From Paramylibacter ulvae (lineage in GTDB: Bacteria > Pseudomonadota > Alphaproteobacteria > Rhodobacterales > Rhodobacteraceae), in NCBI RefSeq assembly GCF_014652655.1, contig NZ_BMZF01000003.1:186001-250000 (forward strand): a stretch of 64,000 bases of DNA. Reading direction: 5' to 3'. The position numbers and the translations under genes are program-made. Positions 45,669 to 48,310 of the stretch are shown here, in pieces; positions within the stretch are counted from its first letter, which is position 1; each line of letters starts with the position of its first letter. A model generated the notes under the pieces. That model was not told where the DNA came from, made no database searches, and worked only from the letters and a program-made list of their open reading frames with translations.

Positions 45669-47062
45669 ATAAAATCACCAACCATCTGCCCACCGCCGAA
45701 TTACAAGCACTTGATGCCGCGCACCACATGCACCCGTTTACCGCTGGCGCAGAGCTTGCGAAAAAGGGTGCGCGAGTGATTACCGCCGCAAATGGCGTGA
45801 CATTAACGGATTCTGACGGCAATCAGATGCTGGATGCCATGGCAGGCCTGTGGTGTGTGAATATTGGATATGGGCGTAAAGAATTGGCCAATGTGGCCGC
45901 CGCACAAATGGAACAATTGCCCTATTACAACACGTTTTTTCAAACCACGCATGTGCCCGCAATTGCATTAAGTGCAAAGCTCGCTGAACTGGCACCCGCC
46001 CATATTAACAACGTTTTTTATGCAGGTTCAGGTTCCGAGGCGAATGATACAAACATCCGCATGGTGCGCCATTATTGGGCCGCCAAGGGCAAGCCCACGA
46101 AAACCACAATTATCAGCCGCAAAAATGCCTATCACGGGTCAACAATTGGTGGCGCGTCATTGGGTGGCATGTCAGGGATGCATGCGCAAGGTGGGCTTCC
46201 GATTCCGGGCATTGCCTATATCGATCAGCCAAATTGGTATGCAGAGGGTGGCGATTTATCTCCCGAAGATTTCGGTCTTGAACGTGCGCGCCAATTGGAA
46301 TTGAAAATCGCCGAACTTGGCGAAGATAACGTGGCTGCATTTATCGCCGAACCGGTACAGGGTGCGGGCGGTGTGATCGTTCCCCCCGCAACATATTGGC
46401 CAGAAATTCAGCGCATTTGTGATGCGCATGACATCCTGTTAATCGCGGATGAGGTGATTTGTGGATTTGGGCGCACGGGCAATTGGTTTGGGTCGCAAAC
46501 CTATGACATTCGCCCCGATATTATGACCATCGCCAAGGGGCTATCATCGGGTTACGCCCCGATCGGTGGGTCATTGATCAGCGATGAAATCGCCGATGTG
46601 GTTAATAACGCAGGCGATTTTAACCACGGTTATACCTATAACGGGCATCCTGTGTCCGCCGCTGTGGCCTTGGAAAATCTGCGAATTTTGCAAGAGGAAA
46701 AAATCATCGAAACCGCGTGTGAAACCACCATGCCCTATCTGGCCGAAAAATGGCACGCTTTGGCGGATCACCCGTTGATTGGCGAAACAAATATTGTGGG
46801 CATGATGGGATCAATCGTGATGACCCCAGATAAATCTGCACGCGCGCCGTTCAAATCGGATGCGGGGACGGTTGGGTTTATTTGCCGAGAGTTTTGTTTT
46901 GAAAACGGTCTGGTCATGCGCCATGTCGGTGATCGCATGATTATTTCACCGCCACTTGTTCTGACCACATCGGATGTGGATGTGTTGATTGAACGCGCCG
47001 TCAAATCATTGGATCAAACATTGGCCAAGGCAACAGCGGATGGGTTGATGGTGGCAGGATAG
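45665..47062 (+). CDS. Class III (omega) aminotransferase, putrescine/amine-pyruvate type
   Basis: A 465-residue PLP enzyme. HHMHPFTAGAELAKKGARVI and LDAMAGLWCVNIGYGRKELA at the start, GSGSEANDTNIRMVRHYW near residue 122, LLIADEVICGFGRTGNWFG with the PLP-contacting aspartate near residue 260, and the PLP lysine in MTIAKGLSSGYAPIGG near residue 288. The pattern matches the SpuC-like group that deaminates putrescine, cadaverine or related amines using pyruvate. Overlaps the GATase by 4 bp. It could supply the deaminating step for the polyamine genes further right. Confidence 0.88.
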   Translation: MNKITNHLPTAELQALDAAHHMHPFTAGAELAKKGARVITAANGVTLTDSDGNQMLDAMAGLWCVNIGYGRKELANVAAAQMEQLPYYNTFFQTTHVPAIALSAKLAELAPAHINNVFYAGSGSEANDTNIRMVRHYWAAKGKPTKTTIISRKNAYHGSTIGGASLGGMSGMHAQGGLPIPGIAYIDQPNWYAEGGDLSPEDFGLERARQLELKIAELGEDNVAAFIAEPVQGAGGVIVPPATYWPEIQRICDAHDILLIADEVICGFGRTGNWFGSQTYDIRPDIMTIAKGLSSGYAPIGGSLISDEIADVVNNAGDFNHGYTYNGHPVSAAVALENLRILQEEKIIETACETTMPYLAEKWHALADHPLIGETNIVGMMGSIVMTPDKSARAPFKSDAGTVGFICREFCFENGLVMRHVGDRMIISPPLVLTTSDVDVLIERAVKSLDQTLAKATADGLMVAG

Positions 47063-47100
47063 CGAACGCTATGCTCATCAAATCCTAACGCATTTCACGC

Positions 47101-47106
47101 TATAAC
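47101..47106 (+). promoter_or_regulatory. Candidate -10 element (TATAAC)
   Basis: TATAAC matches five of six bases of the sigma-70 -10 consensus. No good -35 is seen at the right distance. It would start an RNA near 47112, just before the first hairpin of the structured interval. Confidence 0.3.
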
Positions 47107-47109
47107 ATT

Positions 47110-47325
47110 CCCGACGTCAAAGTGGTTTCACTTGTTTGTGGGCTGGCACCCACAGACAGGTTCCAAAATCATCGGTGGATAGGCGAAAGCCTTGGACAAA
47201 CGGATATAAAACCCCCGTTTGATTGAACAACCGCAACGGCGGGCCCGCCCAATTTCAAGACCCATATGCAAATATGCATGAACCCTCGCAACCCAATCAG
47301 GTTGCGGGGTGTTTGTGCTGTTTAT
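47110..47325 (+). ncRNA. Candidate structured RNA or long 5' leader of ppk2
   Basis: The chain of stems listed for 47063-47392 begins just after a TATAAC box and ends with a strong GC-rich hairpin (47284-47309) followed by TGTTTGTGCTGTTTATTT, a loose terminator-like tail. A GAAA tetraloop and an asymmetric internal loop (47167-47180) resemble folded regulatory RNA. I could not match it to tmRNA, SRP RNA, RNase P, 6S or a riboswitch class I know. Strand is assumed from the order of box and terminal hairpin and from ppk2. Confidence 0.3.
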
Positions 47326-47392
47326 TTATCAAACTGTCACAGTGTTTGGGTATACATTGGCGCTGATGAATAGCGCGCAGATGGGAAAGATC

Positions 47393-48310
47393 ATGAGCCT
47401 CGATAAGCCAAACACCAACGACAGTTGGAGCAAAACCGAATTTCAGGATTATCTGGACGAAGAATTAGAACAGGAAATGTATGATTCCCACATTCCCGAT
47501 GAATTGCGCAATCTTGATCGCCCACATAAAACCGACCCGATTGATCGCCACATTTATTTTAACGAACTGTTCCGCCTGCAAGCGGAATTGGTGAAATTGC
47601 AGGAATGGGTGATCGAAACCAAATCCAAGGTTGTGATAATATTCGAGGGTCGCGATGCCGCGGGCAAGGGGGGCGTGATCAAACGCATCACGCAGCGCCT
47701 GAACCCACGCGTGTGCCGCGTGGTGGCATTGCCCGCACCCAATGATCGCGAAACTTCGCAATGGTATTTCCAGCGGTTCGTGCCCCATTTGCCCGCGGGC
47801 GGTGAAATCGTTTTGTTTGACCGATCATGGTATAACCGCGCAGGCGTGGAACGGGTGATGGAATTTGCCGATGACAATCAGGTTGATCAATTTTTCCACG
47901 ACGTTCCTGAATTTGAACGCATGTTGGATCGATCTGGGATCAAGCTGATTAAATATTGGTTTTCGATCACTGACGAAGAACAACAATATCGCTTCCTCAC
48001 CCGCATCCACGACCCAATGAAACAATGGAAGCTGAGCCCAATGGATTTGCAATCGCGTATCCGCTGGGAAGATTACACCGTCGCAAAAGAGGAAATGTTA
48101 CAACGCACCAACATACCAGAGGCACCTTGGTTCATTGTTGAAGGTAACGATAAAAAACGCGCACGCCTCAATTGTATGGATCACCTGTTGGCGCAAATCC
48201 CATATGGTGATGTGCCACATGATACAATCACATTGCCCGAACGTGTTTCAAACCCTGACTATGAACGGGCAGTTCTGCCAACCGACCTGTATGTTCCGAA
48301 AAAATATTAA
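47393..48310 (+). CDS. ppk2: Polyphosphate kinase 2
   Basis: A 305-residue PPK2-family enzyme that moves phosphate between polyphosphate and nucleoside phosphates. Walker A FEGRDAAGKGGVIKRI near residue 83, the lid region LPAPNDRETSQWYFQRFVPH, Walker B IVLFDRSWYNRAGVERVM near residue 140, and WYFSITDEEQ-type downstream motif (YWFSITDEEQQYRF) are present. Single-domain class (about 300 residues). Start chosen at 47393 because GGGAAAG precedes it; the frame is open from 47309. Long structured leader upstream. Confidence 0.93.
   Translation: MSLDKPNTNDSWSKTEFQDYLDEELEQEMYDSHIPDELRNLDRPHKTDPIDRHIYFNELFRLQAELVKLQEWVIETKSKVVIIFEGRDAAGKGGVIKRITQRLNPRVCRVVALPAPNDRETSQWYFQRFVPHLPAGGEIVLFDRSWYNRAGVERVMEFADDNQVDQFFHDVPEFERMLDRSGIKLIKYWFSITDEEQQYRFLTRIHDPMKQWKLSPMDLQSRIRWEDYTVAKEEMLQRTNIPEAPWFIVEGNDKKRARLNCMDHLLAQIPYGDVPHDTITLPERVSNPDYERAVLPTDLYVPKKY

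Follow-up and report, generated by a model that had tools for sequence, protein, structure and literature searches.

A dispersed family of structured RNA genes in Paramylibacter ulvae and its relatives, with variable palindromic ends that may pair between molecules

In a stretch of 64,000 nucleotides (nt) of the Paramylibacter ulvae genome (contig NZ_BMZF01000003.1, positions 186,001 to 250,000; hereafter the window), the interval between an aminotransferase gene and ppk2 holds an element, at 47061-47321, which is almost certainly one of nine copies, dispersed in this genome, of an RNA gene family. Each copy would specify a stand-alone, structured and presumably transcribed RNA of roughly 140-200 nt. 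Covariation in a palindrome at the predicted 5′ end makes it probable that these RNAs pair with one another, molecule to molecule, and the two proposals taken jointly, the RNA gene family and the pairing between its molecules, are on balance favoured. Amylibacter and its relatives thus carry an apparently unannotated and undescribed RNA gene family with up to 17 copies per genome. It is a case in which sequence alone points to a homo-oligomer in a small bacterial RNA, with well over 100 variants in nature and several forms of the contact within one genome, and this variety of palindromes makes a direct test of assembly and function easy.

Comparison of the interval with its own genome revealed a second, diverged copy, and a search of the same genus gave partial matches in several genomes. 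Fifteen aligned copies share a common layout, namely CGNNCG about 50 nt upstream of the start, TATAAC, a 5′ hexamer, GTGGTT, variable hairpins, AACCRC and a palindromic dodecamer rich in GC, with a 3′ hairpin in most cases. Matches to the core pattern number 24, in eight of 121 genomes, against none for a reversed-pattern control. A covariance model built from 23 copies (R1) found 144 matches at E values up to 0.1, in 17 of the 33 same-genus genomes; 140 of these are counted here, as sets of 80 and 60 copies, the other four being partial or cut by a contig end. By R1 there are nine copies each in the window's own genome and in G020, 15 in G017 and 17, the maximum, in G032.

Perfect palindromes account for 73 of the 80 hexamers at the inferred first base of the RNA. 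Of the other seven, two have a single G.U pair, four belong to copies with the palindromic octamer GTTGCAAC and one is degenerate; when the position is shifted by up to 12 nt either way, perfect palindromes occur in at most four of the 80. The sequence itself is variable: GTCGAC is present in 25 copies, GCTAGC in 23 and GACGTC in 22, with GAGCTC, GATATC and GTGCAC once each. In the 60 further copies, 48 hexamers are perfect, three have one G.U and nine are not palindromic, giving 121 perfect hexamers in 140 copies; 16 of the 60, every one of them perfect, had contributed to the R1 alignment, which leaves 32 perfect hexamers in 44 previously unseen copies. Neither R1 nor R2, a second covariance model made from 65 copies, has base pairs modelled in the hexamer columns. 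Of 18 matches in other genera, 15 carry a 5′ palindrome of 6 nt or longer; the background rate, from 681 windows, is 18%.

The middle two bases of the hexamer change together (CG 47, UA 24, GC 2 and UG 2 of 75). As these bases are adjacent, they are unable to pair within one chain, and the best reading of their covariation is pairing between two molecules. Computed duplexes of the common hexamer types have energies of -7.5 to -8.3 kcal/mol. Closely similar copies may also have different palindromes: in pairs from one genome that are 92-97% identical beyond nt 8, four of the six hexamer positions are changed and both members are perfect palindromes, with at least 12 pairs of this kind, at 92% or more, among the best 20 pairs. 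At orthologous sites the hexamer differs in four of 15 pairs, not all of them independent, and is self-complementary throughout, in one case via a G.U pair.

Four orthologous pairs among the genomes G024, G009 and G006 show RNA identities of 85-90%, whereas seven of the eight members have an own-genome paralogue that is 93-98% identical and the eighth one at 87%, counting fetched copies only. For the pair L253/L262, orthologue identity is 85%, as against paralogue identities of 96% and 95%. Between G017 and G032, which are closer to each other, the nearest copy is in most cases the orthologue. Paralogues that are closer than orthologues indicate that copies within some genomes have been partly homogenised, while several hexamer types persist.

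A multi-copy, trans-acting antisense small RNA (sRNA) is the alternative that fares best against these observations, although it is judged unlikely. Such an RNA would act as a monomer whose loops pair with mRNAs, its palindromes serving only as a terminator or in 5′-end stability. The length, the family's own promoter-like region and the U-tract that follows the dodecamer in many copies all suit this idea, as does the presence of several dispersed copies, a feature of some known alphaproteobacterial sRNAs. It leaves unexplained, however, why the hexamer stays self-complementary despite its letter changes and why adjacent bases covary.

Intermolecular self-pairing finds a second candidate site in the 3′ dodecamer, which occurs in the versions GGTGGCGCCACC, GGCAGGCCTGCC, GGCGGGCCCGCC and GGTGGGCCCACC and is a perfect palindrome in 63 of the 80 copies. 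Its central adjacent pair is GC in 49, CG in 28 and CA in one of 78 copies. Covariation of adjacent bases in a self-complementary segment, a mark of homo-oligomeric RNAs, is found at the centres of both hexamer and dodecamer. Single mismatches in the dodecamer are G.U in 12 cases and of other kinds in three; such a bias is more in keeping with RNA than with DNA, with the caveat that related copies do not count independently. The P6 loop, counted in 67 of the 80 copies as 51 distinct loops, provides a third self-complementary stretch, with palindrome arms of at least 4 and a gap of at most 2 in 26 of the 51 distinct loops and none in the other 25, against a background of 9.6% in letter shuffles. 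The motif TnnCA (UnnCA in RNA) is present in 81 of 290 predicted hairpin loops, where 19 are expected when letters are shuffled within loops. An extra hairpin of the GTGTTTC..GAAACAC type was observed at varied places, such as the P6 loop or the gap between P1 and the dodecamer, in L191, L223, L226, L239, L259, L260, L262, L275 and L276, and it looks as if small hairpins insert into RNAs of this family.

The predicted fold is one in which a helix, P1, closes a multi-branch of hairpins, and it is supported by covariation. It was evaluated on an alignment (A3) of 65 of the 80 copies, with 12 long copies with inserts and three truncated or degenerate copies omitted, and with P1 taken as GUGGUU:AACCRC. 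In the five-helix structure 88.4% of cells are paired, compared with 39.2-47.3% when the partner is slid by one to three columns, and there are 116 double-change cells, as against 33.7 in shuffles (none of 500 reaching this number). Pairs with any change on both sides number 18 of 25; shuffles give 13.2, and five of 500 reach 18. In the third pair of P1, GC is replaced by AU in 11 rows (GUGG:CCAC to GUAG:CUAC), and many G.U pairs occur in the intramolecular stems read on the + strand. Some alignment rows of P1 are off by one column. RNAalifold chooses an alternative P1 in which GUGG pairs with CCGC of the dodecamer; this competes with GUGGUU:AACCRC, and both are possible. A local hairpin, CCRC:GYGG, was left unused, as by eye it fits many copies and not those of the GUAG type. 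The conserved promoter-like region and a covarying structure independent of the neighbouring genes, two marks of an independent trans-acting sRNA, are both present.

The fold also bears on the second alternative, a DNA-level element in the form of a repetitive extragenic palindromic (REP)-like or miniature inverted-repeat transposable element (MITE)-like repeat, or a recombination site, that spreads between genes and whose palindromes act in DNA. Its probability is low. The copies are dispersed and sharp-edged, they often follow a stop codon, some contain nested hairpin inserts, and many of the 80 compared have no partner at the orthologous site in another genome. Against this, TATAAC is conserved at a near-fixed spacing, the exceptions in the dodecamer are biased towards G.U, and the intramolecular stems show the double changes and + strand G.U pairs described above. 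No convincing match to a mobile replicon was found either: phage and viral-contig searches gave no match, and a plasmid search gave one 22-nt chance match; a further search matched the aminotransferase end only, on one plasmid. In two comparisons, at the L239 site in G017 and the L230 site in G032, different DNA was found and no clean empty site. One copy in G017, L333 (C8:116700-118400), is rearranged; an 87-nt stretch comprising the promoter end and 5′ part is identical to L239 of G032, and the copy has a foreign-looking interior and a normal dodecamer end.

Several observations weigh against self-pairing RNAs or against parts of the case for them. A palindrome can be a DNA-level signal, and reading it in RNA rests on the G.U exceptions and the several sequence versions. 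The copies are related, so that the counts are of non-independent events, and pairs changed on both sides are as numerous in structures slid by one column (19) as in the fold (18). Since G....C served as the anchor of the first alignment, independent evidence comes only from the two inner pairs of the hexamer, which the anchoring did not constrain, and not from its outer G-C pair. In nine of the second set of 60 copies the model start is not a hexamer palindrome: two have a perfect one displaced by 1 or 3 nt, and truncated, weak and mismatched copies are among the others. Three of the 18 matches in other genera lack a 5′ palindrome. As to the promoter, there is no canonical -35 box and no + strand sigma-70 match in the interval, and by eye the spacing from TATAAC to the start is longer in G300, a genome of another genus. 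Finally, a 6-bp duplex is weak by itself, and the best of four mixed hexamer pairs computed (GUCGAC with GACGUC) reaches -3.9 kcal/mol.

In the mechanism proposed here, the RNA would start at the palindromic hexamer, which would be single-stranded 5′ of P1 and free to pair with the identical hexamer of a second RNA molecule. Copies with the same hexamer would pair together, while different hexamers in one cell would cross-pair weakly, and the 3′ dodecamer and palindromic loop would add further contacts between molecules. The many gene copies would provide the dosage of a trans-acting RNA. It is tentatively suggested that the hexamers act as exchangeable self-recognition tags, such that the bodies of the RNAs are homogenised, the 5′ ends are mutually incompatible palindromes and assembly occurs within a tag class only. 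If so, dimers or larger RNA particles would form per tag class, from up to 17 gene copies in a genome; the energy of the best mixed pair implies that the tags would not be perfectly separate. Repeated loops in a many-copy RNA suggest protein titration or scaffolding, and the RNA could conceivably titrate or scaffold an RNA-binding protein via its repeated UnnCA loops; this is the leading guess as to function, a doubtful one that forms the weakest step of the proposal.

A number of known systems offer comparisons. With Rfam 15 at the gathering score, a scan of the window and of 13 loci with other copies gave no match on the element. In E-value mode the interval and five further loci gave sub-threshold overlaps only, two of them for the interval itself and far below the cut-offs; such scores include 20 of 43 bits for Bacteroides-1, 11.4 of 54 for sR41 and 27.4 of 88 for mir-876. 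CsrB/RsmZ-type RNAs titrate proteins through repeated hairpin loops with the common motif GGA. The present family likewise repeats hairpin loops with a common motif, but this is UnnCA and not GGA, and no Rfam match was obtained at cut-off. CcsR is a multi-copy sRNA of Alphaproteobacteria; both it and AbcR resemble the family in being small, intergenic and present in more than one similar copy. The family differs from these two, as compared through Rfam scans only, in its many more copies, its covarying multi-branch fold and its palindromic ends.

Homology to OLE, GOLLD and ROOL, families contained in Rfam, found no support in a match at cut-off. These homo-oligomeric bacterial RNAs resemble the present family in offering several candidate contacts per chain (PMC12286853), and for OLE and GOLLD the covariation of adjacent bases has likewise been used as an argument. 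As described there, they are large, ornate RNAs solved by cryo-electron microscopy, whereas the RNA of the window would be about 140-200 nt with up to 17 copies per genome. Its main palindrome sits, by contrast, at the inferred start of the RNA, and a single genome can hold several versions of it. A contact of the kissing-loop type, the retroviral dimer initiation site, shares a 6-nt palindrome and adjoining purines (here, A residues follow) (PMC7357161); that site is a hairpin loop, in contrast to the predicted free 5′ end of a bacterial chromosomal RNA. In these two papers (PMC7357161, PMC12286853), natural RNA homo-oligomers are presented as rare and, outside viruses, as without shown relevance until recently. 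The sRNAs of Ruegeria pomeroyi have been reported, and no mention of multiple copies was found in the accessible part of that account (PMC4809877). In the literature searches the RNA family was undescribed as far as found, most subscription papers being outside their reach.

In the genomes sampled, the RNA family shows a patchy distribution inside a single bacterial family, Rhodobacteraceae. R2 found it in nine of 394 genomes in a sample of the family (8 of 393 genera), in seven of 292 genomes in a sample of the order (2 of 112 genera) and, among 289 genomes of the class, in the window's own genome only. These wide-search counts are lower bounds because stricter filters were used and few candidates were scored per genome; lone weak R2 matches in other genera, such as those in G279 and G299, are doubtful. 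A contig scan with the core pattern gave mostly unrelated bacteria among the matches listed. R1, applied to 19 of 80 listed core-pattern loci, gave 14 matches below 1e-9, mostly on contigs of genomes already searched. Four contigs of G010 (C74, C75, C86 and C90) start or end within copies, so assemblies may break at the repeat and copy numbers in draft genomes may be undercounted. In G032 two copies lie about 800 bp apart (C1:76211 and 77008; L244 and L238), one of them with a degenerate 5′ end.

At the window locus (Table 1), the sequence-only reading had proposed a structured, gene-free interval before ppk2, at 47063-47392, as a possible unrecognised RNA. The open reading frame of the aminotransferase does end at 47062 and the ATG of ppk2 lies at 47393, with no genes between, and the TATAAC box, the hairpins, the asymmetric internal loop over GAAA and the 10-pair terminal hairpin are all present. 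The feature is real and the interval slightly too wide, as the conserved unit stops near 47321 and the final 70 nt or so are the upstream region of ppk2 itself. Conservation drops to background upstream of about -54, as seen in 80 copies, and, in a profile of 56 copies, some 12 nt beyond the GGGG in the 3′ hairpin. The predicted fold of 47063-47393 has an energy of -107.8 kcal/mol, as against -91.6 (standard deviation 4.8) in shuffles (z -3.37; none of 100 equal or better); on the opposite strand z is -2.77 and two of 100 shuffles are as good.

Table 1. Coordinates of the conserved unit and its parts in the window; promoter, transcript and helices are predicted.
Feature	Position	Strand	Basis
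Complete conserved unit (RNA gene, promoter region and 3′ hairpin)	47061-47321	+	Column conservation in aligned copies
Upstream motif AGCGAACGC, family form CGNNCG, mostly at -50	47061-47069	+	Comparison of copies
TATAAC, -10-like box, 6 nt upstream of the inferred first RNA base	47101-47106	+	Conserved columns -12 to -7
5′ palindromic hexamer GACGTC, inferred RNA 5′ end	47113-47118	+	Palindrome perfect in 73/80 and 48/60 copies
P1, 5′ strand GTGGTT (partner 47229-47234)	47122-47127	+	Helix paired in 87.3% of cells
Hairpin with loop CTGGCA, 13-nt arms 85% complementary	47130-47161	+	Inverted repeat I2; TnnCA loop type recurs in the family
TCCA/TGGA stem, asymmetric internal loop, then AGGC-GAAA-GCCT (47181-47192)	47162-47196	+	Sequence reading; AGGC-GAAA-GCCT in predicted fold
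Hairpin CAAACGG / CCGTTTG	47197-47221	+	Inverted repeat I6
P1, 3′ strand AACCGC	47229-47234	+	Pairing counts in aligned copies
3′ palindromic dodecamer GGCGGGCCCGCC	47238-47249	+	Perfect in 63/80 copies, four sequence versions
3′ hairpin CCTCGCAACC..GGTTGCGGGG, likely terminator of the window copy	47284-47309	+	10 pairs, T-rich tail
Likely transcript of the window copy	47113-47320	+	TATAAC spacing, 3′ hairpin

The start of the RNA is placed at 47113 because of the TATAAC spacing. CGNNCG lies 46-52 nt upstream of this first base (+1) in 76 of the 80 copies when positions 35-65 are scanned, in 55 of them at -50. A TAAC-N7-TAAC-like upstream repeat recalls CtrA sites, but by eye the first base of its TTAA half-site is often C, and it is noted as a lead only. 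R2 matches the window copy, which is among its building set, at 47116-47254 with 50.6 bits. This copy lacks a U-tract after the dodecamer and so probably ends at the hairpin of 47284-47309, which has a T-rich tail; in copies that have the U-tract, the RNA may end there instead. By a simple pattern, a hairpin end with GGGG is found downstream in 57 of the 80 copies. An open frame of six codons in one subtype was dropped, being absent by eye from the other subtypes.

By a crude longest-frame method, the upstream frame of the 80 copies is co-directional in 53, opposite in 19 and lacking in eight, and the stop of the co-directional frame falls 35-73 nt before +1 in 41 of the 53. By the same method the downstream frame is convergent in 50 of the 80. 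In many copies the sequence on the 5′ side of the 3′ hairpin is A-rich; such a hairpin resembles an opposite-strand terminator and perhaps shields the RNA gene from convergent transcription.

The sequence-only reading had left the choice between a small RNA and a regulatory leader. The first is upheld by the nine own-genome copies beside genes that are, by eye, unrelated, by the conserved promoter-like region and by the conservation and compensatory changes among copies in relatives that the reading had named as a check, and the RNA was indeed unrecognised in that Rfam gave no match at cut-off. A ppk2 leader was rejected: outside G020, whose version of the locus is 91% identical, the closest ppk2 (that of G017, with 79% identity) is preceded by a different gene and lacks such an RNA, and the other eight own-genome copies lie beside other genes. 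A cis-regulatory leader of ppk2, or a 3′ untranslated region or bidirectional terminator module of the neighbours, is thus highly improbable: the position between the aminotransferase stop and ppk2, the frame layout of the 80 copies and the likeness of many 3′ hairpins to an opposite-strand terminator would suit it, but the neighbours are unrelated and a terminator requires neither a covarying multi-branch fold nor a variable palindrome. One copy in G024, L258 (C28:137849-137991), does lie just upstream of another ppk2-family gene, 49% identical to that of the window, possibly by chance. Elsewhere in the window, positions 1621-1701 of the - strand match the cis-regulatory RNA chrB-a of Rfam with 58.6 bits (cut-off 43.9).
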